A stretch of 25,048 nucleotides of DNA from a virus, in the IMG/VR virus record IMGVR_UViG_3300021963_000609, positions 1 to 25,048 of that record, one strand, 5' to 3'. The notes beneath the pieces were generated by a model. That model did not search any database. It saw only the letters and a program-made list of their open reading frames with translations, and had not been told where the DNA came from. The translations under genes and the position numbers were made by a program. Shown here in pieces: positions 1 through 8,082 of the stretch (position 1 is the first letter of the stretch; each line of letters begins with the position of its first letter).

Positions 1-1
1 C

Positions 2-286
2 TCAGGTGAATATAATATTGATAGAGTTAGAATTTATGATAATGGAATTCTTGTAGATGACCATAAAGAAAAAATGAGTGGATGGATGCACCCATTAGTT
101 CCAGATGATGTTCGTATGCCTATGTGGGAATATGTTCATTCTATGAGAAGTAAATTCCATAGAGATAAACCACCACTTGAAGAAGTCCTTCATGGATTTG
201 TAGATAGACTAGGAGCAATATTTGCTGCTTTAGGGAGTGCTGGTGTTACCGCATTTAGGTTTTTTAGAGCTGGAAGAGGAATGTAA
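2..286 (+). CDS. 3' end of an unrecognised phage protein (5' partial)
   Basis: The frame is open from the first complete codon at base 2 to a TAA at 284-286, so the gene starts upstream of the window. A methionine at base 74 is internal to this open frame. The visible 94 residues are mixed polar and hydrophobic. The part after about residue 60 is richer in Ala, Gly and Phe and ends in a basic tail (RFFRAGRGM). I do not recognise the family. The last 57 bases overlap the 3' end of the convergent minus-strand gene ending at 230, so the two genes share their ends and no terminator separates them. Function is unknown. Confidence 0.6.
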   Translation, partial: SGEYNIDRVRIYDNGILVDDHKEKMSGWMHPLVPDDVRMPMWEYVHSMRSKFHRDKPPLEEVLHGFVDRLGAIFAALGSAGVTAFRFFRAGRGM

Positions 287-481
287 TTCTTCTTCTCTTC
301 TTCTCTGGGCGTCAATACCAAATGTGGATAAGGTGGATGTGAATACTGCTGCTACAAAAGTGGGGTCCATCTTATTCATTACTCCCATATAACCAAGTGT
401 GAGCATACCAGCAGACCAAATCAACACTGCCATTCTAACAAAAGCAACCATACAAATATTGTCCTTAAATTTTTTATTCAT
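230..481 (-). CDS. small membrane protein, possibly holin-like
   Basis: An 83-residue protein. I chose the ATG at 481-479 because it is preceded by a good Shine-Dalgarno (GGAAGGGAG) and overlaps the stop of the upstream gene as ATGA, implying translational coupling. One clear hydrophobic segment (about residues 9-34) is followed by a second, weaker one (about 37-52). After that comes a charged, Ser- and Lys-rich tail with QRRREEE. A short protein with two hydrophobic segments, a DPTFVAAVFTSTLSTFGID-like second segment and a charged tail would fit a small phage holin, but no motif proves it. It is the last gene of a three-gene minus-strand operon. Confidence 0.6.
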   Translation of the reverse strand: MNKKFKDNICMVAFVRMAVLIWSAGMLTLGYMGVMNKMDPTFVAAVFTSTLSTFGIDAQRRREEELHSSSSSKKPKCGNTSTP

Positions 482-669
482 CTCCCTTCCTGTCGATGTA
501 TCCAGGTTTTGAGTTCTGAAAGATATAGTCTTAATTCTTCTGCTTTTTCTAAATGCCAAACATTACCACTCTTGAAATATTCTTGAGTGTGGTTATCAAT
601 TGCTTTTAGTATATTATGTATCGGTGCGTTCCAAGGCTCACGATTGGGAGTATTCCATTCTCTTGGCAT
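478..669 (-). CDS. conserved small cyanophage protein, function unknown
   Basis: A 63-residue soluble protein rich in Trp (WNTP, WNAP, VWH, TWIH) with a mainly helical second half (HLEKAEELRLYLSELKTWIH). No catalytic motif is visible. The ATG lies three bases after the stop of the Lys/Gly-rich microprotein upstream, with GTGAGG immediately before it. Its stop overlaps the start of the membrane-protein gene downstream (ATGA). The tight packing says the three are co-translated from one late transcript. I recall similar short Trp-containing proteins in other T4-like cyanophages but cannot name a function. Confidence 0.65.
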   Translation of the reverse strand: MPREWNTPNREPWNAPIHNILKAIDNHTQEYFKSGNVWHLEKAEELRLYLSELKTWIHRQEGR

Positions 670-672
670 ACC

Positions 673-786
673 TCACTTTTTTTTACCCCCATTCTTTGCT
701 TTTTTAGCAGTAGCATTACCTTGATTTTGTTTGGATTGCTTACCGCCAGCAGATCCTTTCTTACCTTTGTTTGCAGACTTTGCCAC
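673..786 (-). CDS. Lys/Gly-rich basic microprotein with GTG start
   Basis: A 37-residue frame starting at GTG (786-784) and ending with TGA at 675-673. The product is almost entirely Lys, Gly, Ala, Asn, Gln and Ser (AKSANKGKKGSAGGKQ at the start, AKKAKNGGKKK at the end). It has no ATG in frame. GGGACGG lies four bases upstream as a possible Shine-Dalgarno. A TATAAATA late promoter sits 46 bases upstream on the same strand. The stop is three bases from the next gene's ATG. Low-complexity basic composition suggests nucleic-acid or membrane-surface binding, but this is inference. A different frame over the same bases (791-606) would run through the next gene and looks like a shadow. Confidence 0.5.
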   Translation of the reverse strand: MAKSANKGKKGSAGGKQSKQNQGNATAKKAKNGGKKK

Positions 787-831
787 TGCACCGTCCCAGT
801 TTATACAATGATATTTATGGAAAATGGTTTC

Positions 832-839
832 TATTTATA
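832..839 (-). promoter_or_regulatory. late promoter for the minus-strand small-gene operon
   Basis: TATAAATA read on the minus strand (839 to 832), a perfect match to the T4 late promoter. It lies 46 bases before the GTG start of the microprotein. It is back to back with the psbA promoter cluster (866-899, plus strand), making this a divergent promoter region. Confidence 0.6.
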
Positions 840-865
840 CTGTGCCACTTAAGTAATTGGACCTA

Positions 866-899
866 TTGACAGGATTTCCTAACACTGTTATTATAAATA
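866..899 (+). promoter_or_regulatory. composite sigma70 and late promoter of psbA
   Basis: TTGACA at 866-871, a 17-base spacer and TATTAT at 889-894 form a near-consensus host sigma70 promoter. The late element TATAAATA at 892-899 overlaps the -10 box, starting three bases into it. Transcripts from both would start near 901-905, giving psbA a leader of about 160 bases. The same register is seen at psbD. Confidence 0.7.
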
Positions 900-1066
900 C
901 ATCAACAACATTAAAGAATGTAACAACTCCTTAATGTTTTGTAACTCCCATTAACCGAGACCTATGGGGAGTATAAAAACGTCTCTCATACCCACAGTGG
1001 AGGGTGCTGTGGGGAATAATCGTATCAGTTCGTCCCCCCGAACTTTTATTTAACTCTCTTAAAAAA
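900..1066 (+). other. structured psbA 5' leader
   Basis: This stretch contains several inverted repeats: AACATTAA (907-914) with TTAATGTT (931-938); CCCACAG (991-997) with CTGTGGG (1007-1013), a perfect 7-bp stem; and a C-run flanked by TTCG and CGAA (1028-1041). No clear Shine-Dalgarno precedes the psbA ATG at 1067. The leader could regulate translation or stability of psbA mRNA, but I cannot assign it to a known RNA family. Confidence 0.4.
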
Positions 1067-2149
1067 ATGACTGCTACACTTTCACGTCAACAATCACAAT
1101 CGAATATTTGGGAACAGTTTTGCAACTGGGTAACTTCAACTGACAACCGCCTCTATGTGGGTTGGTTCGGCGTTCTGATGATCCCCTGCCTGCTTGCTGC
1201 TACTACTTGCTTTATCATTGCTTTCATCGGTGCTCCCCCAGTGGACATTGATGGCATCCGCGAACCAGTTGCTGGTTCTCTGATGTACGGAAACAACATC
1301 ATCTCTGGTGCTGTTATTCCTTCGTCCAACGCGATTGGACTGCACTTCTACCCCATCTGGGAAGCTGCTTCTCTAGATGAGTGGCTGTACAACGGTGGTC
1401 CTTTCCAACTTGTTGTCTTCCACTTCCTCATTGGCATCTATGCTTATATGGGTCGTGAGTGGGAACTTTCCTACCGCCTAGGTATGCGTCCTTGGATCTG
1501 CGTTGCATACTCTGCACCTGTTGCTGCTGCTTCTGCAGTGTTCCTGGTCTATCCTTTTGGTCAAGGTTCTTTCTCTGACGCGATGCCCCTTGGTATCTCT
1601 GGTACTTTTAACTACATGCTTGTGTTCCAGGCAGAGCACAACATCCTGATGCACCCCTTCCACATGCTTGGTGTGGCTGGTGTGTTCGGCGGTTCTCTGT
1701 TCAGTGCAATGCACGGTTCTCTGGTTACTTCTTCGCTGGTTCGTGAAACCACTGAGCAAGAGTCACAGAACTATGGTTACAAGTTCGGTCAAGAAGAAGA
1801 GACCTATAATATCGTTGCTGCTCACGGTTATTTCGGACGCCTTATTTTCCAATATGCTTCTTTTAATAACTCCCGTTCGCTGCACTTCTTCCTTGCTGCT
1901 TGGCCTGTTGTAGGCATCTGGTTTGCTGCTTTAGGTGTAAGCACTATGGCTTTTAACCTTAACGGTTTTAATTACAACCAGAGTATTCTTGATTCACAAA
2001 ATCGTGTAATCAACTCTTGGGCGGATGTTCTTAATCGTGCCAACCTCGGTTTTGAAGTAATGCACGAAAGAAACGCACATAACTTCCCACTTGACCTTGC
2101 TGCTGCTGAAACCACTCCTGTGGCGATGACTGCACCTTCAATTGGTTGA
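1067..2149 (+). CDS. psbA: photosystem II D1 protein
   Basis: D1, the reaction-centre subunit that binds QB, pheophytin, P680 chlorophylls and the Mn4Ca cluster. In cyanophage infection it replaces photodamaged host D1. The frame is 360 residues, the normal length for D1 precursor. I start at ATG 1067 (MTATLSRQQ), not at an in-frame GTG upstream at 1004, because this matches the D1 N-terminus. There is one extra residue near the N-terminus, so local numbers are +1 to the usual ones. Visible ligands include Asp171 (SFSDAMP), Glu/His in [13 protein letters not shown], and the C-terminal [13 protein letters not shown] with the CtpA cleavage site. Glu is present at usual position 130 (MGREWELSY), the high-light D1 form. 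No intron interrupts it. A terminator follows. Confidence 0.97.
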
Positions 2150-2169
2150 TAAAAACTCAATAGTTTTTG

Positions 2170-2194
2170 AGAGACCTGAAAGGGTCTCTTTTTT
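2170..2194 (+). terminator. rho-independent terminator of psbA
   Basis: GAGACC (2171-2176) pairs with GGTCTC (2183-2188) around a short loop, extended by an A-T pair, and is followed by a run of T (2189-2194). It lies 20 bases after the psbA stop. Confidence 0.8.
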
Positions 2195-2202
2195 ATGCTT
2201 TC

Positions 2203-2240
2203 TTGACTAAATACTTAAAGTTATGCTATAATAACTTTAA
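2203..2240 (+). promoter_or_regulatory. sigma70 promoter with overlapping inverted repeat, upstream of endonuclease gene
   Basis: TTGACT (2203-2208), an 18-base spacer and TATAAT (2227-2232) make a strong sigma70-type promoter. A perfect 10-bp inverted repeat, TTAAAGTTAT (2215-2224) and ATAACTTTAA (2231-2240) with six bases between, covers the -10 box. It could be an operator. Alternatively it forms an RNA hairpin only in read-through transcripts, since initiation near 2239 would omit it. Confidence 0.6.
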
Positions 2241-2255
2241 TCACTTAAAAGAACT

Positions 2256-2693
2256 ATGAGAACTTGTAAAATCTGTAATCAATCAAAACCTCTTACTGAA
2301 TTTTATCAAACTGTAAGGAAAGGAAAACCTTATGGTTATCACGGAAAATGTAAAGAATGCTATATTAAAAAGCAACAAGAAAATTATGACCCATTAAAAC
2401 AAAGAGATGAAAATCTCAAACAAAGATATGGTAAGCATTTTGGATTAACACAATATAATACTCTTTTAGAAAATCAAGGACATAAGTGTGCTATTTGTGG
2501 AACTACTAATCCCAAAGGTAGAAAATCTGGAAGAGGTGGTTCAATAGATGTATTCTTTGTTGACCATAATCATAAAACTGGTGAAGTGAGGGGTTTACTT
2601 TGTAATGTCTGTAATAGAACTATTGGATATGTAAATGAGGATGTTGATTTGATTAGGAATATGATTGAATATGTTAAAAGAAATAATAACTAA
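2256..2693 (+). CDS. endonuclease VII-like HNH endonuclease, probable free-standing homing endonuclease
   Basis: A 145-residue nuclease of the recombination-endonuclease-VII type. An N-terminal zinc ribbon (C4-x2-C7, C32-x2-C35) precedes a second zinc site C78-x2-C81 and C116-x2-C119. These bracket the catalytic DHNH at residues 103-106, with Asn120 matching the essential Asn of T4 endonuclease VII. Its position directly after psbA, its own promoter and its small size fit a free-standing homing endonuclease that cuts in or near psbA-like alleles. Cyanophage S-PM2 is known to carry a free-standing homing endonuclease (F-CphI) next to psbA. I cannot tell whether this protein is the same family. 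A role as a Holliday-junction resolvase is the alternative. GC is much lower than in psbA. Confidence 0.8.
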   Translation: MRTCKICNQSKPLTEFYQTVRKGKPYGYHGKCKECYIKKQQENYDPLKQRDENLKQRYGKHFGLTQYNTLLENQGHKCAICGTTNPKGRKSGRGGSIDVFFVDHNHKTGEVRGLLCNVCNRTIGYVNEDVDLIRNMIEYVKRNNN

Positions 2694-2715
2694 ATAACTA
2701 AAAAGTATTTGTAAA

Positions 2716-3273
2716 ATGGACGCACAAGAACTTCGCAATCTTCAAGAAGCATATATGGAAGTTGTTGAAAATCAGCAACTTGATGAAATCTCTGATAGGA
2801 AAGTCAAGGGGATGTTAAGAAAGAGAGATGCACAAGATGTAGATAGTGGTGGTATAAGTGGTGCTTGGATGGCAAGACGCCGTGCTCATCAGGCAGCAGC
2901 AAGAAGAAATGTAAGAACAGGTTCAAATGTTCGTGTCGATTCTGATTTAGCAAAAGAAGAAGTAGATATTTACGACATCATCCTCTCACACTTACTTGAT
3001 GAAGGATATGCTGAAACACCAGAAGCAGCAGAAGCAATTATGGTGAATATGAGTGAAGAGTGGAAAGAAAATATTATGGAAATATCTGATAGAATGGTTA
3101 ATGCGGTAAAGAAAGCACGAGTAAAAAGAACTGATAGGTCACTGATGAGAGGTGATGGAAATAATTTCGCGGGTAATGTAGATAAGGAAACAAGAATGAA
3201 TGCTAGAATTCAAGCTAGAAATCAAAGAACTGGTAGTAATGTTGAACCTTCATTTACTCGTAGGCATCAGTAA
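2716..3273 (+). CDS. unknown phage protein with internal duplication and EGYAET repeat domain
   Basis: A 185-residue, highly charged protein. The N-terminus (MDAQELRNLQEAYMEVVE) is helical. A central module (about residues 91-118, LLDEGYAETPEAAEAIM then NMSEEW) is shared almost exactly with the next gene. The flanks repeat one another: EISDR, a basic stretch, then RN-x-RTGSNV, at about residues 24-74 and again at about 121-176. This suggests an internal duplication. Similar EGYA-x-T modules occur in other T4-like cyanophage proteins, but I know no function. A structural or scaffold role is only a guess. No good Shine-Dalgarno precedes the ATG. A strong terminator follows at 3305-3328. Confidence 0.75.
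   Translation: MDAQELRNLQEAYMEVVENQQLDEISDRKVKGMLRKRDAQDVDSGGISGAWMARRRAHQAAARRNVRTGSNVRVDSDLAKEEVDIYDIILSHLLDEGYAETPEAAEAIMVNMSEEWKENIMEISDRMVNAVKKARVKRTDRSLMRGDGNNFAGNVDKETRMNARIQARNQRTGSNVEPSFTRRHQ
2995..3064 (+). repeat. 70-base direct repeat, copy 1
   Basis: Bases 2995-3064 and 3529-3598 are the same length and differ only in an eight-base middle segment (3015-3022 against 3549-3556). The last 42 bases are identical. The repeat encodes the EGYA...AEAIMVNMSEEW module in both genes. Such identity at synonymous positions points to a recent duplication or gene conversion. Confidence 0.85.
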
Positions 3274-3304
3274 TAAAATATAAAAAAATCAATCAATCAA
3301 ACAA

Positions 3305-3328
3305 GAGAGTTCATTACTCTCTTTTTTT
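3305..3328 (+). terminator. rho-independent terminator
   Basis: GAGAGT (3305-3310) and ACTCTC (3316-3321) form a perfect 6-bp stem with a five-base loop, followed by seven T. It closes the gene ending at 3273. Confidence 0.85.
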
Positions 3329-3336
3329 ATAAATTT

Positions 3337-3344
3337 TATAAATA
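3337..3344 (+). promoter_or_regulatory. late promoter
   Basis: A perfect TATAAATA, 23 bases before the ATG at 3367, in an AT-only spacer directly after a terminator. It predicts late expression of the downstream gene from a leader of about 15 bases. Confidence 0.65.
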
Positions 3345-3366
3345 ATAAAAAATATAAATTAATAAT

Positions 3367-3984
3367 ATGTCTCCTTACGAACATCGTCAGTTACTTAAGT
3401 TTTTATATTTTGAAGGATATGCTGACTCCTATCAGGAAGCTGATTATCTTCTTGAGGAGATGAATGATGATGACTTTTTATACTTATATGAAGAAGTAAT
3501 TGAAAACAAAAAAATAATCAATCGCCTTCTTGATGAAGGATATGCTGATACTCAACAAGCAGCAGAAGCAATTATGGTGAATATGAGTGAAGAGTGGAGA
3601 GACACTATTATAGAAAGAGAGGATAGTCCTTATGAGAAAGCATCTGATGCTGCATTAGATAAAAGATATGGATATGGTAGAGCATCTGGTGATAAGCGTT
3701 CTTTCGGTAGAGCAGCAAACCGTTCATCTGCTGCCGCTGCTCTTCGTGCTATTAGAAGAGGTGAAAGAAGTGGTAGTGGAACTTCAAGAGAAGCAGGTGC
3801 TGATGCAGTTCATCAGGGTTGGGCAAGAACTGCTAAAACAAGTACAGACCAAACACCAGAAAAGAAAGAAAGAAGAGCAAAACTTGCTAATACATCATAT
3901 TCAAATCTTCCCGATGATGAAAAGGAAAAGGATAGAGTATCTTTTGATGCTGTAAGAGCAACTTATAATAGAAACAAAAGATAA
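3367..3984 (+). CDS. unknown protein with two EGYAD modules
   Basis: A 205-residue protein. Residues about 8-45 (LLKFLYFEGYADSYQEADYLLEEM) are a diverged version of the module at about 52-80 (LLDEGYADTQQAAEAIM, MSEEWRDTI). The second copy is nearly identical in DNA to the module of the upstream gene. The rest is basic, Arg-, Ser- and Gly-rich (SGDKRSFGRAANRSSAAAALRAIRRGERSGSG) and looks unstructured, ending in charged RNKR. A late promoter and terminators on both sides make it a single late transcription unit, suggesting a virion or assembly role. That is inference; no catalytic residues are visible. Confidence 0.75.
   Translation: MSPYEHRQLLKFLYFEGYADSYQEADYLLEEMNDDDFLYLYEEVIENKKIINRLLDEGYADTQQAAEAIMVNMSEEWRDTIIEREDSPYEKASDAALDKRYGYGRASGDKRSFGRAANRSSAAAALRAIRRGERSGSGTSREAGADAVHQGWARTAKTSTDQTPEKKERRAKLANTSYSNLPDDEKEKDRVSFDAVRATYNRNKR
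3529..3598 (+). repeat. 70-base direct repeat, copy 2
   Basis: Partner of 2995-3064: the first 20 and last 42 bases are identical to copy 1, with eight substituted bases between. It is in frame in both host genes. Confidence 0.85.
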
Positions 3985-3990
3985 TAAAAA

Positions 3991-4013
3991 AGGAGGGATA
4001 AAACCCTCCTTTA
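3991..4013. terminator. bidirectional terminator between convergent genes
   Basis: AGGAGGG (3991-3997) pairs with CCCTCCT (4004-4010) around ATAAAA. A short T-run follows on the plus strand, and a six-A run (3985-3990) gives a T-run on the minus strand. It therefore serves the gene ending at 3984 and the minus-strand gene ending at 4017. Confidence 0.8.
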
Positions 4014-4016
4014 ACT

Positions 4017-4220
4017 TTATTTGGAACTTACAAAATCATTAATGATTTCTGCTTGTTCTAGAACTTGATTGAGTGTTGGAAAATCTGGATAATCCATTGG
4101 TACTTCTTTTTTCTCAACCTCATTCCAACGAACAGCAGTATCGTACTCTATACTAAACTGGTCATTAAGCATATTGTATGCTTGCTTAAAGATTTCAAAT
4201 CGAAGTTCATAAGGTGTCAT
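4017..4220 (-). CDS. conserved small cyanophage protein, function unknown
   Basis: A 67-residue acidic, aromatic-rich protein (MTPYELRFEIFKQAYNMLND at the start, ending INDFVSSK). I chose the ATG at 4220-4218 because AGGAGGA lies six bases upstream. An upstream in-frame ATG at 4256 has no such site. The protein looks like a compact helical fold, with no catalytic motif. I recall close relatives in many T4-like cyanophages, without a function. It is the only minus-strand gene between psbA and psbD. It has its own strong sigma70-type promoter and shares a bidirectional terminator, so it is probably an early or host-polymerase-transcribed gene. Confidence 0.8.
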   Translation of the reverse strand: MTPYELRFEIFKQAYNMLNDQFSIEYDTAVRWNEVEKKEVPMDYPDFPTLNQVLEQAEIINDFVSSK

Positions 4221-4262
4221 AGGTATCCTCCTAATGTGTGTGATGTGTGTTTCCACTAAGAC

Positions 4263-4290
4263 ATTATATCATAAATCATCAAAAAGTCAA
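4263..4290 (-). promoter_or_regulatory. sigma70 promoter for the minus-strand small gene
   Basis: On the minus strand, TTGACT (4290-4285), a 16-base spacer and TATAAT (4268-4263) stand about 40 bases before the ATG at 4220. This is a near-consensus host-type promoter. Confidence 0.7.
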
Positions 4291-4317
4291 GTAATAATAA
4301 AAACCTATCCTCAGTTT

Positions 4318-4376
4318 TCTGAAGCAACTCCTGTTGCTCTGACTGCTTCTTCTATCGGTTGATAACAACTGAATAA
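4318..4376 (+). pseudogene. displaced psbA 3' tail
   Basis: Bases 4318-4362 read SEATPVALTASSIG and a TGA stop, matching the D1 C-terminus in 10 of the last 14 positions. The DNA match to the psbA end at 2106-2163 is about 46 of 58 bases and runs past the stop codon (GGTTGATAAxAACTxAATA), so it is homology and not chance. No start or upstream psbA sequence is present. It is an orphan 3' fragment 2.2 kb downstream of the intact gene, followed by a strong terminator. Its stop-codon region also supplies the -35 box of a promoter. Confidence 0.85.
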
Positions 4377-4386
4377 CTGATATAAT
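4359..4386 (+). promoter_or_regulatory. sigma70 promoter within the psbA-tail remnant
   Basis: TTGATA (4359-4364), a 16-base spacer and TATAAT (4381-4386). Initiation near 4393 would fall inside the 5' arm of the following terminator hairpin, so transcripts starting here would escape it and could express the microprotein and psbD. Confidence 0.5.
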
Positions 4387-4387
4387 T

Positions 4388-4413
4388 AGAGGGTGTAACA
4401 ACCCTCTTTTTTT
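4388..4413 (+). terminator. terminator after the psbA-tail remnant
   Basis: AGAGGGT (4388-4394) pairs perfectly with ACCCTCT (4401-4407) around a six-base loop, followed by a T-run to 4413. It probably is the original terminator of a former psbA allele. Confidence 0.8.
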
Positions 4414-4536
4414 ATGTCTCATAATAATCAACATCATCCTATGGAACCCTGGATCATCTGGGTAGGTGTAGGTATGATGGCCTTTACGGTTCTTATATTT
4501 GTCTTATTCACTCTCGGTCAGATGTATTGGGGATAA
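4414..4536 (+). CDS. 40-aa single-span membrane microprotein upstream of psbD
   Basis: A 40-residue frame: a short polar, His-rich start (MSHNNQHHPMEPW), then one long hydrophobic helix (about residues 13-36, IIWVGVGMMAFTVLIFVLF) and a TLGQMYWG end. Size and topology resemble the single-helix small subunits of photosystem II or cytochrome b6f, and it sits 68 bases before psbD. I do not recognise it as any named subunit; a photosystem link is inference from position. There is no Shine-Dalgarno; the ATG follows the terminator T-run directly. A shorter start at 4441 (MEPW) is possible. Confidence 0.6.
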   Translation: MSHNNQHHPMEPWIIWVGVGMMAFTVLIFVLFTLGQMYWG

Positions 4537-4549
4537 GCACAAACACTCA

Positions 4550-4583
4550 TTGACTCCTTTGTTAAGAGATGTTAACATAAATA
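4550..4583 (+). promoter_or_regulatory. composite sigma70 and late promoter of psbD
   Basis: TTGACT (4550-4555), a 17-base spacer and TAACAT (4573-4578) form a moderate sigma70 promoter. CATAAATA (4576-4583), a late-promoter variant, overlaps it from the fourth base of the -10 box, the same register as at psbA. A strong AAGGAGG (4596-4602) then precedes the psbD ATG. Confidence 0.6.
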
Positions 4584-4604
4584 TGAGAAATAACTAAGGA
4601 GGTT

Positions 4605-5666
4605 ATGACTTCTTCTACACTTTCACAACCAATTCAACAACGAGGATGGTTTGATGTCCTGGATGACTGGCTTAAACGAGATCGCTTTGTATTTGTGGGT
4701 TGGTCTGGACTATTACTTTTTCCCACTGCTTATCTTGCCCTTGGTGGTTGGCTTACTGGCACAACGTTTGTTACGAGTTGGTACACCCACGGGTTGGCGT
4801 CTAGTTACCTTGAGGGTGCTAATTTCCTTACGGCAGCTGTGTCAACGCCTGCAGATTCTATGGGTCATTCTCTTCTTCTACTTTGGGGTCCTGAGGCTCA
4901 AGGGGATATCGTCAGGTGGTTCCAACTTGGGGGACTATGGACTTTTGTGGCACTTCACGGATCTTTCGCTCTGATTGGATTCATGCTTCGCCAGTTTGAG
5001 ATTGCTCGATTGGTTGGTATCCGTCCTTATAACGCAATCGCATTTTCCGGTCCGATTGCAGTATTCGTTTCTGTATTTCTGATGTATCCACTGGGACAAT
5101 CCAGTTGGTTTTTTGCTCCATCATTCGGTGTGGCAGCAATCTTCAGGTTCCTGCTCTTCCTTCAGGGTTTCCATAACTGGACCCTTAACCCCTTCCATAT
5201 GATGGGAGTTGCTGGTATACTAGGAGGAGCACTACTCTGTGCTATTCATGGTGCAACGGTAGAAAACACACTATTTGAAGATGGTGATCAAGCAAACACA
5301 TTCAAAGCATTTGAACCTACACAAGAAGAAGAAACCTATTCAATGGTTACTGCTAACCGTTTCTGGTCGCAAATCTTTGGAATTGCTTTTAGTAACAAGC
5401 GTTGGCTTCACTTCTTTATGCTCTTTGTTCCTGTCATGGGTCTTTGGACTTCTTCTATTGGTATCATCGGTCTTGCACTTAACCTGCGTGCTTATGATTT
5501 TGTATCGCAGGAGATAAGGGCAGCAGAAGATCCAGAATTTGAAACTTTTTATACAAAGAACGTGCTTCTTAACGAAGGCTTACGTGCTTGGATGGCTCCT
5601 GTAGACCAACCTGGAGCAAACTTCCAGTTTCCCGAAGAGGTTCTTCCGAGAGGTAATGCACTATAA
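4605..5666 (+). CDS. psbD: photosystem II D2 protein
   Basis: D2, the partner of D1 in the photosystem II core; it binds QA and carries TyrD and the non-haem iron His ligands. The frame is 353 residues, the normal length. Family hallmarks run throughout: [20 protein letters not shown] near the start, [54 protein letters not shown] and the invariant end [12 protein letters not shown]. The Shine-Dalgarno AAGGAGG ends two bases before the ATG, which fixes the start. No terminator follows directly. The next gene, an endonuclease, is reached by read-through or its own late promoter. A second copy of the last ten codons lies at 6299-6331. Confidence 0.97.
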
Positions 5667-5676
5667 AGGTTATTTT

Positions 5677-5684
5677 TATAAATA
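5677..5684 (+). promoter_or_regulatory. late promoter of the second endonuclease gene
   Basis: A perfect TATAAATA ending at 5684. Initiation about six bases later, near 5690, would fall inside the 5' arm of the start-codon hairpin at 5683-5706. Confidence 0.65.
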
Positions 5685-5706
5685 GTATTACCCTGTGGTA
5701 ATACTA
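5683..5706 (+). promoter_or_regulatory. hairpin covering the endonuclease start codon
   Basis: TAGTATTACC (5683-5692) pairs perfectly with GGTAATACTA (5697-5706) around the loop CTGT. The 3' arm ends on the A of the ATG at 5706 and covers the ribosome-binding region. Read-through RNA from psbD would contain the full stem; RNA started at the late promoter would not. Confidence 0.7.
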
Positions 5707-6188
5707 TGACAAGACCTAAATCAAAATCTCATATTGGTGAGAAACATAATAGACTGACTATCTTGGAGCAGCATAGCGAAAAGAAGGCAGTCTATTTTAC
5801 TGTTAAATGTGACTGTGGGACTATAAAAAAAGTTCGTAAGGATGCTATAATAGGACCCAGAGCAGAAACAAAATCTTGTGGATGTGTATTAAAAGCGCAC
5901 GATTGGAACAGGGGTCGTGATGCTCGTTCACCCATGTGGTCTCGGGCAAAATATAGAGCAAAGCAAAAGGGTCTGGATTTTAATATCACAAAGGAAGATA
6001 TTGTTATTCCAGACACCTGCCCTTTGTTAGGCACTCCTATGGAATCACCGTCATTAGATCGTATTGATTCTTCTAAAGGATATATAAAAGGTAATGTGTG
6101 GGTCATCAGTAATAGAGCAAATACTCTAAAAAATGATGCTACATTACAAGAACTCAAAACATTAGTTGAAAATCTGGAGAAACTATGA
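5706..6188 (+). CDS. HNH-like homing endonuclease
   Basis: A 160-residue protein. The N-terminal part (GEKHNRLTIL, then C35-D-C37 and C58-G-C60) resembles the DNA-binding zinc module found before phage HNH nucleases. The C-terminal part CPLLGTPM, SLDRIDSSKGYIKGN, VWVISNRANTLKND (residues 105-144) matches phage and intron endonucleases in which the HNH core is written D-R-x-D...GY...NV...N. Asp118, Asp121, Asn130 and Asn139 are candidate core residues; the canonical first His is absent, so activity is not certain. Its place directly after psbD, start-codon hairpin, and late promoter fit a selfish endonuclease that restrains its own expression. It overlaps the next ORF as ATGA. Confidence 0.7.
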   Translation: MTRPKSKSHIGEKHNRLTILEQHSEKKAVYFTVKCDCGTIKKVRKDAIIGPRAETKSCGCVLKAHDWNRGRDARSPMWSRAKYRAKQKGLDFNITKEDIVIPDTCPLLGTPMESPSLDRIDSSKGYIKGNVWVISNRANTLKNDATLQELKTLVENLEKL

Positions 6189-6331
6189 AAGATACTTCTA
6201 CAAATCAACTTCCACCAAATCAAAAATACATTGGGTGGAAAGAAGTAAATGAAAAAGAATTTGATGAGTTGTTTCCTCCCATCCAAAAGAAAAATCGTGA
6301 GGAAGTATTGCCAAGAGGCAACGCTCTGTGA
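6185..6331 (+). CDS. 48-aa ORF whose C-terminus is a displaced psbD 3' tail
   Basis: The ATG overlaps the stop of the endonuclease gene (ATGA), so it may be translationally coupled. Residues 1-37 (starting MKDTSTNQLPPNQKY) are polar and unrecognised. The last ten residues, [10 protein letters not shown], are identical to the D2 C-terminus and end at TGA. The junction lies at about base 6298. Whether this chimeric peptide is functional or simply an open frame left by recombination is unknown. A perfect terminator hairpin follows within eight bases. Confidence 0.55.
   Translation: MKDTSTNQLPPNQKYIGWKEVNEKEFDELFPPIQKKNREEVLPRGNAL
6299..6331 (+). pseudogene. displaced psbD 3' tail
   Basis: Ten codons plus stop encode [10 protein letters not shown] as in psbD at 5634-5663. 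Nine of ten codons differ in DNA, all synonymously, so this is a diverged allele's tail and not a recent copy of the psbD in this window. Confidence 0.85.
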
Positions 6332-6338
6332 TATACTT

Positions 6339-6360
6339 GGAGGGGAAACCCTCCTTTTTT
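6339..6360 (+). terminator. terminator after the psbD-tail remnant
   Basis: GGAGGG (6339-6344) and CCCTCC (6349-6354) with a GAAA loop and six T. Probably the original psbD terminator, displaced by the endonuclease insertion. Confidence 0.9.
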
Positions 6361-6375
6361 AATGTTCTTTATATT

Positions 6376-6918
6376 ATGGATAAGACGTTGAAGGAATATA
6401 TCGAAATATATTCTCCACCAAATCCAATATTAAATCAAAATGATATAGATAAATTGCAGTGGAATTCTGGGATTTGGGCAGATAAGAATGGAAATAAAAT
6501 AAGTTTCCAAAATTGCGATATGGCATATTGCCCAGATCAAGAGACATTTTCAAAAGTTACTGGATGGGCAAATTATTGCTGCAATCAATATTCCAAAAAT
6601 AAAAAATTTAAAATCACTGAGGGTGCAGATCCTAGATTTAATCGATATCAAGTTGATCAACATATGGATTTGCATGTTGATCATATTCATAGTTGTTTTG
6701 ATGGTCTCAAAAAAGGAATTCCAGTATTATCTGTTGTTGGAATTTTGAATGAGGACTACGTAGGAGGAGAATTAGTGTTTTACCTTGGAGATCAAGAATA
6801 CGTACCAAATTTGAAAATGGGAGATACTCTAATATTTCCTTCTGCCTTTCCTTGGAAACATGAAGTAAAACCTGTTATTTCTGGAACACGTTATACATGG
6901 GTTACTTGGGCTTGGTAA
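6376..6918 (+). CDS. 2-oxoglutarate/Fe(II)-dependent oxygenase
   Basis: A 180-residue dioxygenase of the prolyl-4-hydroxylase-like type, common in cyanophages. The iron ligands are His100-x-Asp102 (MDLHVDHIH) and His162 (WKHEVKP), with Arg172 (GTRYTW) as the 2-oxoglutarate-binding residue. The strand region VVGILNEDYVGGELVFYLG lies between, as expected for the double-stranded beta-helix. I chose ATG 6376; the longer frame from 6328 runs through the preceding terminator hairpin. The substrate cannot be read from the sequence: protein or nucleic acid hydroxylation are both possible. It starts a run of short auxiliary genes directly after the psbD terminator. Confidence 0.85.
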   Translation: MDKTLKEYIEIYSPPNPILNQNDIDKLQWNSGIWADKNGNKISFQNCDMAYCPDQETFSKVTGWANYCCNQYSKNKKFKITEGADPRFNRYQVDQHMDLHVDHIHSCFDGLKKGIPVLSVVGILNEDYVGGELVFYLGDQEYVPNLKMGDTLIFPSAFPWKHEVKPVISGTRYTWVTWAW

Positions 6919-7023
6919 ATATTATATGATTACAACATCAACACCATATAAACTTGCTGAAATTATTAGAGATACTTGGCCCCAACTTTACAGACCCTCA
7001 AAATTGACTTATAATAAATTACC

Positions 7024-7031
7024 TATAAATA
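7024..7031 (+). promoter_or_regulatory. late promoter upstream of glutaredoxin
   Basis: Perfect TATAAATA, 26 bases before the glutaredoxin ATG at 7058. It lies inside the longer open frame that begins at 6926. Confidence 0.55.
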
Positions 7032-7057
7032 CTCCACAAAACTTTACGAAAAACCAT

Positions 7058-7294
7058 ATGAAGTTTACAGTTTATTCAAAAGATGGATGTCCATATTGCT
7101 CAAAGGTAGAACAGGTGCTACAATTATCGGAGTTGCAATATGTCGTCTACAAGTTGCACCAAGACTTTACTAAAGAAGAATTTTATTCTGAGTTTGGACC
7201 TGGTTCAACTTTCCCTCAAGTAATTATGAATGATCAGCATCTAGGTGGATGCACAGATACAGTGAAGTACCTAAAAGAAAACCAAATTATTTAA
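7058..7294 (+). CDS. grx: glutaredoxin
   Basis: A 78-residue glutaredoxin that reduces disulfides with glutathione, in T4-like phages typically supporting ribonucleotide reductase. It begins MKFTVYSKDGCPYCSKVEQ with the CPYC dithiol active site (residues 11-14). The cis-Pro segment STFPQV and the GG-C-TD glutathione-binding turn follow, giving a complete fold of usual length. The frame stays open upstream to an ATG at 6926, which would add 44 residues (MITTSTPYKLAEIIRDTW...). I prefer 7058 because the core fold starts there and a late promoter lies between the two starts. The extension reads like real protein and might be used from read-through RNA. The next gene begins at the base after its stop. 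Confidence 0.85.
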   Translation: MKFTVYSKDGCPYCSKVEQVLQLSELQYVVYKLHQDFTKEEFYSEFGPGSTFPQVIMNDQHLGGCTDTVKYLKENQII

Positions 7295-7654
7295 ATGGAA
7301 AGCACTTTTCACGAAGTTTATTACGATGTAGAGAGAGCGATTGATTATGCATTTGAAGGCAAATTCGTTCTTAACTTTTATGAATACTTAAAAGTTAAGA
7401 ACATAAAAAAAGTAGAAATTGAACAATTTATCGAAAGTTCAACTGCAGCGAATATTAATTCAATTGTTGGTGATCTTGATGAATATCTAAAAGGAGGTTC
7501 TGATGATGAACATAAACAACTTCGTGAAGCATATGGTCATATTCCAAAACCTCAAGCTAGAAAAATTCGTAATTATCTCTACGAAATTTTAGAGGATGCT
7601 TGGAAATACAATCATGACAAAAGAAAAGGAAGACGAAAAAAGGAAACTAAATAA
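7295..7654 (+). CDS. conserved hypothetical helical protein
   Basis: A 119-residue protein, probably all-helical, with a basic C-terminus (HDKRKGRRKKETK). The ATG directly follows the glutaredoxin stop with no gap, so translation is likely coupled. No enzyme motif is visible. The segment LREAYGHIPKPQARKIRNYLYEILEDAW looks like a surface helix pair. Similar proteins occur in T4-like cyanophages as hypotheticals. Its 3' end overlaps the next gene by about 40 bases in another frame. Confidence 0.75.
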   Translation: MESTFHEVYYDVERAIDYAFEGKFVLNFYEYLKVKNIKKVEIEQFIESSTAANINSIVGDLDEYLKGGSDDEHKQLREAYGHIPKPQARKIRNYLYEILEDAWKYNHDKRKGRRKKETK

Positions 7655-7844
7655 TTTTGATCCCCATATTGATAGGGGATTTGAATTGATGTTACGACAG
7701 CATAATAGGAGGGAGAAACCATCAGAAGAACCAAAAACATTTTTAATTCGGTTTGGTAAGATGCTATCTCTCCTCAAACGAGAGATTCATTTTCAATTTG
7801 AATTTTTTGTTGATATTAGAAAAATCAACTCTCGGGAGAAATAA
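7614..7844 (+). CDS. small hypothetical protein
   Basis: A 76-residue protein starting MTKEKEDEKRKLNNFDP. The ATG at 7614 is chosen over an upstream in-frame start at 7596 because less overlap with the preceding gene is needed. The N-terminus is strongly charged; the middle (FDPHIDRGFELMLRQHNRR) and end (FQFEFFVDIRKINSREK) look folded. No known domain is recognised. It overlaps the upstream gene by 41 bases and its stop is one base before the next ATG, so it belongs to the same tightly packed operon. Confidence 0.6.
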   Translation: MTKEKEDEKRKLNNFDPHIDRGFELMLRQHNRREKPSEEPKTFLIRFGKMLSLLKREIHFQFEFFVDIRKINSREK

Positions 7845-7845
7845 A

Positions 7846-8082
7846 ATGCTTGCAGTAACTCTCACCTTAGGAACATTAATTTCAATTATGTTCTTTTTTC
7901 TTGGAGGTGTAATAGGATGGATGGCAAAACAATACGTGTTTGAAAAGAACATGGTTGCATATACACATCCCGAAATGTTTGATGAGAATGGAAATGTAAT
8001 TCCAGATGAAATTGTAGCCGTGAGGTTTGAAAACGATTATGACAACTACGAAGACGAAGAAGACAACTACGACGAAGACTAA
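7846..8082 (+). CDS. single-span membrane protein with acidic tail
   Basis: A 78-residue protein. One transmembrane helix near the N-terminus (about residues 3-25, VTLTLGTLISIMFFFLGGV) is followed by a soluble part with MFDENGNVIPDEIVAVRF and a very acidic C-terminus (NYEDEEDNYDED). The ATG at 7846 is preceded by GGGAG at a proper distance; an upstream in-frame start at 7753 is rejected because it lies deep in the previous gene. I recall the FDENGNVIPDEIVAVRF stretch as common in cyanophage hypotheticals. Function is unknown; a short membrane-anchored protein facing the cytoplasm is the likely form. Confidence 0.75.
   Translation: MLAVTLTLGTLISIMFFFLGGVIGWMAKQYVFEKNMVAYTHPEMFDENGNVIPDEIVAVRFENDYDNYEDEEDNYDED

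Follow-up and report, generated by a model that had tools for sequence, protein, structure and literature searches.

The window, by which we mean the whole 25,048-nucleotide stretch of viral DNA analyzed here (positions 1 to 25,048 of IMG/VR record IMGVR_UViG_3300021963_000609), has cyanophage genes and carries intact copies of the photosystem genes psbA and psbD, each followed by an endonuclease gene and, further downstream, by a short detached photosystem-gene 3' end (Table 1). The endonuclease encoded after psbA, HEG1, is 39% identical to F-CphI, and its residues D103, H104, H106, R112, and N120, which supply the Endonuclease VII motif D-H-x-H...R...N, are invariant between the two proteins. 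No relative of HEG1 above 60% identity was found in phage isolates. HEG1 is separated from the detached psbA end by 1.6 kb of cargo, and the gene content predicted for this interval was recovered as described: an Endonuclease VII-type ORF, two related ORFs, and one ORF in reverse orientation. The two related ORFs have a 92-bp repeat in common (90% identity) and correspond to one fused ORF in contig L350; the cargo ORF family is common in IMG/VR contigs, with 429 relatives. Upstream of psbA, a PhotoRC-II RNA motif is present at 932-1027 (Rfam RF01717, 80.5 bits).

Table 1. Features of the psbA-psbD region, numbered from the first base of the window.
Feature	Position	Strand	Basis or remarks
Intact psbA	1067-2149	+	
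psbA body, recipient-type (groups with L021/L066/L088 lineages)	1067-1911	+	Mostly 85-98% identity; trees, MaxChi
Replacement psbA 3' end, donor-type, nearest L010	1912-2149	+	Breakpoint between ~1912 and ~1957
Terminator travelling with the new psbA 3' end	2169-2190	+	Similar in L017 and L010 before HEG1
Putative sigma-70-like promoter before HEG1 (TTGACT-18-TATAAT)	2203-2232	+	11/12 consensus; kept in L017
HEG1, 145 aa, Endonuclease VII-type free-standing endonuclease	2256-2693	+	PF02945, E 3.8e-20
Cargo ORF	2716-3273	+	2739-2978 95-98% to L350 (DNA)
Cargo ORF sharing a segment with the preceding ORF	3367-3984	+	93% protein identity in L350 group
Cargo ORF	4017-4256	-	91% in L350 group
Displaced old psbA 3' end (codon ~347 to stop)	4319-4362, likeness to 4375	+	BLASTN and profile
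Promoter-like element over old stop codon (TTGATA-16-TATAAT)	4359-4386	+	Sequence match; putative function
Old psbA terminator hairpin	4388-4407	+	Same in empty-site contigs
40-aa membrane-like ORF, after psbA in empty-site phages	4414-4536	+	phrog_7358, E 3e-16
psbD	4605-5666		Intact gene
Second element: end of psbD, HEG2, and small ORF (706-base block)	5601-6306	+	100% identical to L246
HEG2, endonuclease after psbD, 160 aa	5706-6188	+	phrog_3322 endonuclease, E 2e-32
Small ORF running in frame into displaced psbD tail	6185-6331	+	
Displaced old psbD 3' end (D2 codon ~343 to stop)	6296-6331	+	psbD tail profile, E 1.9e-5

Comparison of the window with itself by BLASTN aligns 4319-4375 without gaps to the end of the intact psbA at 2106-2162, with 46 of 57 bases identical (E 1.3e-5). 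The original prediction of an orphan psbA tail at this place is therefore correct in substance, although the match begins at 4319 rather than 4318; the claim that the likeness continues past the stop codon also holds, for about 13 bases. A chance match is ruled out by the local score of 59, against a best score of 29 in 500 dinucleotide shuffles, so the sequence is clearly closer to psbA than to unrelated sequence. A psbA-3'-end profile recovered the tail from codon ~347 to the stop codon (E values between about 4e-9 and 1e-8) and detected no further unattached psbA-end copy at E<=0.01 in the whole window.

Contigs that lack the insert provide the context for this tail. In L089, L076/L067/L111, L098, L083, L334, L335, and L346, the true psbA end runs into the sequence that follows the tail in the window, in the order psbA end, promoter-like element, terminator, 40-aa ORF (phrog_7358), and psbD; L089 matches window positions 4321-4593 at 88.9% in a single uninterrupted alignment. 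As the terminator and 40-aa ORF that follow the tail also link the psbA end to psbD in these empty sites, the tail is, judged from these alignments, the ancestral psbA 3' end of the phage. It had been proposed that psbA formerly ended at the tail, beside psbD, and that this could be checked by looking for genomes in which a sequence resembling 4318-4413 closes psbA ahead of psbD; the empty-site contigs, including L089, have precisely this arrangement. They also show that an endonuclease gene is optional between a conserved psbA and psbD. The tail is 95% identical to the intact psbA ends of L017 and L088 and 80% identical to the intact end in the window itself. Following the stop codon, the sequence is nearly invariant across contigs having the window-type flank, and its conserved promoter-like and terminator elements are a plausible reason for the flank to persist while the coding part decays. 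At both displaced tails the promoter-like element over the old stop is followed immediately by a terminator hairpin (4359-4407 and 6308-6354), an odd order. The 40-aa ORF is conserved between psbA and psbD in many cyanophage contigs. In the L019-L027 group (e.g., L020 5001-5431), the end of a HEG1-type gene meets the start of this ORF, and none of the old psbA tail, the promoter-like element, or the terminator is retained.

The intact psbA of the window is a mosaic. Its identity to closer relatives is for the most part 85-98% between about nt 180 and nt 850 and about 73-78% thereafter; over the last ~190 nt, L010 alone remains close, at 91% (~73-82% for the others), and it likewise bears a HEG1-type gene. 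MaxChi places the switch at about nt 846-891 of the gene (window ~1912-1957) relative to L021, L089, and L131, with no signal as strong in 1000 permutations. For the 5' part of psbA, a grouping of the window with L010 is rejected (p-AU 0.028); the 3' part joins these two with support of 92, a value from few sites, and at this number of sites a tree joining the window with its 5' kin is not rejected (p-AU 0.107). By these comparisons, the last ~170-200 bases of psbA and the endonuclease gene that follows are attributed to another lineage, the nearest being L010, so that a foreign 3' end stands immediately upstream of an endonuclease gene, as it does in the yeast WHO elements considered below. 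The D1 sequence LDLA is at codon 345 and the displaced part starts about two residues later, at codon ~347, inside the C-terminal extension that we take to be normally removed from D1. Replacement of the gene end at this point should therefore be mild, and the extension is a plausible safe spot for repeated replacement. The psbA gene is continuous and no Rfam intron match was found in 1-8000, and a remnant of an intron was accordingly ruled out as the source of the tail. Other contigs have interrupted psbA genes: the gene is apparently in four pieces (codons 1-78, 79-232, 217-332, and the end) in L347 (2958-6336), and also in L333 and L343, which suggests several introns or insertions in one phage psbA. 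Interruptions at codons ~299 and/or ~338 occur in L399 and L400 (1676-3235), L126, L137, and L337, close to the psbA breakpoint and to the intron site of S-PM2.

A group of five contigs, L350-L354, has the cargo, reverse ORF, tail junction, 40-aa ORF, and psbD in common with the window, and the cargo DNA is 95-100% identical over long stretches, but their endonuclease differs from HEG1 (33% identity) and their psbA end differs as well. Along L350, identity to the window is 85-98% in the psbA body (1187-1906), drops to 73-80% from ~1907 to the psbA stop, 68% in the spacer, and 33-53% in the endonuclease gene, and returns to 95-98% from ~2739. The same cargo and tail are thus found under different endonucleases, with turnover in a single slot like that of the WHO elements. 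Since tail and cargo are shared and the endonuclease and psbA end are not, the exchanged unit consists of the psbA 3' end and the endonuclease gene, and for one of the two lineages at least, the displacement is older than the unit found there today. The present psbA 3' end and endonuclease are thus, from these alignments, probably a later replacement in the same slot, and HEG1 is probably not the endonuclease that displaced the tail. The original prediction of a cassette inserted ahead of the old tail, made up of a replacement 3' end and an endonuclease, stands insofar as the foreign end travels with the endonuclease, but the L350-L354 contigs show at least two steps rather than a single insertion. 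Tails at different stages of decay were observed: the full tail is present in the window and L350, the last two codons and stop are fused to a cargo ORF in L017 and L337, and in L356 the coding part is lost and the promoter and terminator alone remain, together with what looks like the last bases of an endonuclease gene.

A parallel case is present at psbD. The window and L246 have no mismatches between 5600 and 6307, while psbD upstream of this block has diverged and the sequence after the tail is unalignable; the presence of 706 identical bases between diverged flanks points to a recent transfer of the unit with its right junction inside the displaced psbD tail. This block and the psbA breakpoint both indicate flanks co-converted with an endonuclease gene. 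HEG2 has no Pfam match. Window positions 6295-6337 are 95% identical to the psbD end of S-PM2. Near the start of psbD, 110 bases (4786-4895) are also identical to L246 in an otherwise diverged gene body, a separate recombination patch. Further psbD cases were found in L246, L247/L248/L250, L252, L268, L270, and L275; in several of them the tail and the endonuclease are fused. The psbD tail starts at codons 343-344 in five of six cases.

Displaced psbA tails likewise recur in other lineages. In L048, L071, L118, L140, L155, and L150, the endonuclease ORF extends in frame into the tail and terminates at the stop codon of the tail; L170/L171 represent a sister case to L048. The psbA bodies of L048 and L170 are ~77% identical, but their final ~45 nt are almost the same, their endonucleases share 92% identity, and the likeness ends within the displaced tail. 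A displaced tail with an F-CphI-like gene and a further ORF is present in L069; the ORF between that gene and the tail (3709-4737, reverse strand) encodes 342 residues with repeats of the form xPDGKxYxG...HG...GWTR. In the four cases compared, the displaced tail is 91-98% identical to the psbA end of another phage and 71-80% identical to the intact end of its own genome. The tail starts fall in a narrow zone, codons ~341-347. No displaced tails were found in the isolates S-SKS1, S-RSM88, S-RIM12, S-CAM9, AG-345-L05, DSL-LC02, and S-IOM18.

Displaced psbA tails occur in 5 of 36 contexts with an intervening endonuclease and in none of 75 without one (p 0.003), and displaced psbD tails in 6 of 29 versus none of 52 (p 0.0015), counts that are indicative because the loci were partly picked by endonuclease or tail queries. 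An orphan tail far from psbA in phages lacking the insert, which the original prediction had named as an observation that would speak against it, was not seen in the 75 contexts. Endonuclease insertions after psbA have no displaced tail in 31 of the 36 contexts, so the tail is either an occasional product or often lost.

Displacement of the old end, the foreign source of the new one, block exchange of the unit, and recurrence at both genes are read directly from the sequences, while cleavage, its site, and resistance to it are predicted. We consider it highly likely that the tail once formed the 3' end of psbA and was moved downstream by a free-standing homing element, the mobile part of which comprises the replacement psbA 3' end, its terminator, and the endonuclease gene. 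During co-infection, the endonuclease would cleave a unit-free psbA close to the 3' end of the gene, and repair would copy the donor psbA end and the endonuclease gene into the recipient, joining them on the left within psbA homology and on the right within or close to the native 3' end of the recipient. The recipient psbA would stay whole, with a foreign and presumably cut-resistant terminus, and its former end would be stranded downstream together with the promoter and terminator. Later rounds would exchange the unit while the old tail remains in place and decays, possibly serving as the right-hand homology arm; the loss of similarity inside the displaced tail in both the window/L246 and L048/L170 pairs is consistent with this role but is not proof of it.

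The alternative that survives best is ordinary phage mosaicism, in which illegitimate recombination placed a foreign psbA end and its neighbours in front of the old one, with the endonuclease as a mere passenger. T4-like phages recombine freely, cargo ORFs are present, and the right junction is variable, all of which would fit; we nonetheless judge this explanation unlikely, as an endonuclease lies between gene and tail for every displaced tail found, the same anatomy arose separately at two genes, the tail starts are confined (psbA codons ~341-347 and, in five of six cases, psbD codons 343-344), and non-homologous endonucleases have been exchanged in the same slot. A tandem or partial duplication of the phage's own psbA, later split by insertions, has as its sole point the presence of two copies of the psbA end in one genome, and it was ruled out as highly improbable because the tail is nearer to the psbA ends of other phages (95%) than to its own (80%) and its flank is the ancestral psbA-psbD spacer. 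Integrase islands typically leave a restored gene end plus a displaced fragment, so a site-specific island at the psbA 3' end, with the end restored and an att-type fragment left behind, would give a similar picture; this equally improbable reading was rejected because none of the inserted genes was recognised as integrase-like, the two psbA ends are not identical, and foreign sequence extends ~200 nt into psbA, in keeping with co-conversion. An assembly chimera or chance similarity, conceivable for a window that is a single metagenomic contig, has a negligible probability given the score far above shuffled controls, the recurrence of the arrangement in identical form in L003, another contig of 35 kb, and the presence of this tail junction in the five larger contigs L350-L354 (up to 284 kb); these contigs exclude an assembly artefact.

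Several known systems resemble homing of this kind. Yeast WHO elements replace the FBA1 3' end and push the old end downstream (Coughlan et al. 2020, PMC7282813), and they likewise have an endonuclease gene directly downstream of an essential gene, a foreign 3' end before it, and older 3' ends that now lie downstream, along with strong divergence of the 3' end among relatives and turnover of non-identical endonucleases at one site. They differ in residing at a yeast nuclear gene, in using an intein-like endonuclease with a zinc finger whose cutting has been demonstrated, and in leaving fragments of ~400 bp, whereas the phage elements, for which cutting is predicted from sequence, involve photosystem genes, Endonuclease VII/HNH-type enzymes, and tails of 33-75 bases, with some endonuclease ORFs reading into the tail. 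As an Endonuclease VII-type protein, HEG1 is not a member of the WHO family proper, and the likeness is one of mode of working alone. Mobile ORFs of fungal mitochondria (Allomyces atp6; Glomus atp6, atp9, cox2, and nad3; PMC3630166) also combine an endonuclease element with a foreign C-terminal segment and a native end that is displaced downstream and is nearer to relatives than the inserted end is; unlike the phage elements, they employ LAGLIDADG/GIY-YIG enzymes, and several are in frame with the host gene. Cyanophage S-PM2 has the same psbA-psbD locus and enzyme family, and its F-CphI cuts intronless psbA in collaborative homing (PMC6083498). The psbA of S-PM2 holds a group I intron at the F-CphI cut site, unlike the intronless psbA of the window, and S-PM2 was rejected as a direct parallel since the F-CphI gene is present but no displaced psbA tail was found there. 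The T4 seg and mob genes, which take part in intronless homing, also encode free-standing endonucleases beside conserved genes and are inherited with co-converted flanks; displaced host-gene ends are not mentioned in the parts of the account on which this comparison draws (PMC2988022). The open-access papers searched contained no earlier account of photosystem-gene ends displaced in this way in phages, and prior description elsewhere is possible. By analogy, the anatomy resembles that of WHO elements and fungal mitochondrial mobile ORFs and is best read as homing into photosystem-gene 3' ends.

More tentatively, and with slightly less than an even chance of being right, these loci may represent a cyanophage class of 3'-end-replacing homing elements that use unrelated endonuclease families at psbA and psbD. 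The short displaced end would be kept for two roles, as right-hand homology arm in the following round of homing and as promoter of the downstream gene; some endonucleases would borrow the tail as their own C-terminus and stop, and the elements would cause the C-terminal coding region of phage photosystem genes to be replaced repeatedly.

The displacement of old psbA and psbD ends offers a concrete route by which selfish endonucleases could reshape the ends of phage photosynthesis genes, and would be a phage counterpart to a mechanism already described for nuclear genes of yeast and mitochondrial genes of fungi. As displaced tails are readable fossils of past homing, the history of this homing could be reconstructed from metagenomes. 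The process may also help to explain mosaic psbA 3' ends and the introns that sit near the same place.
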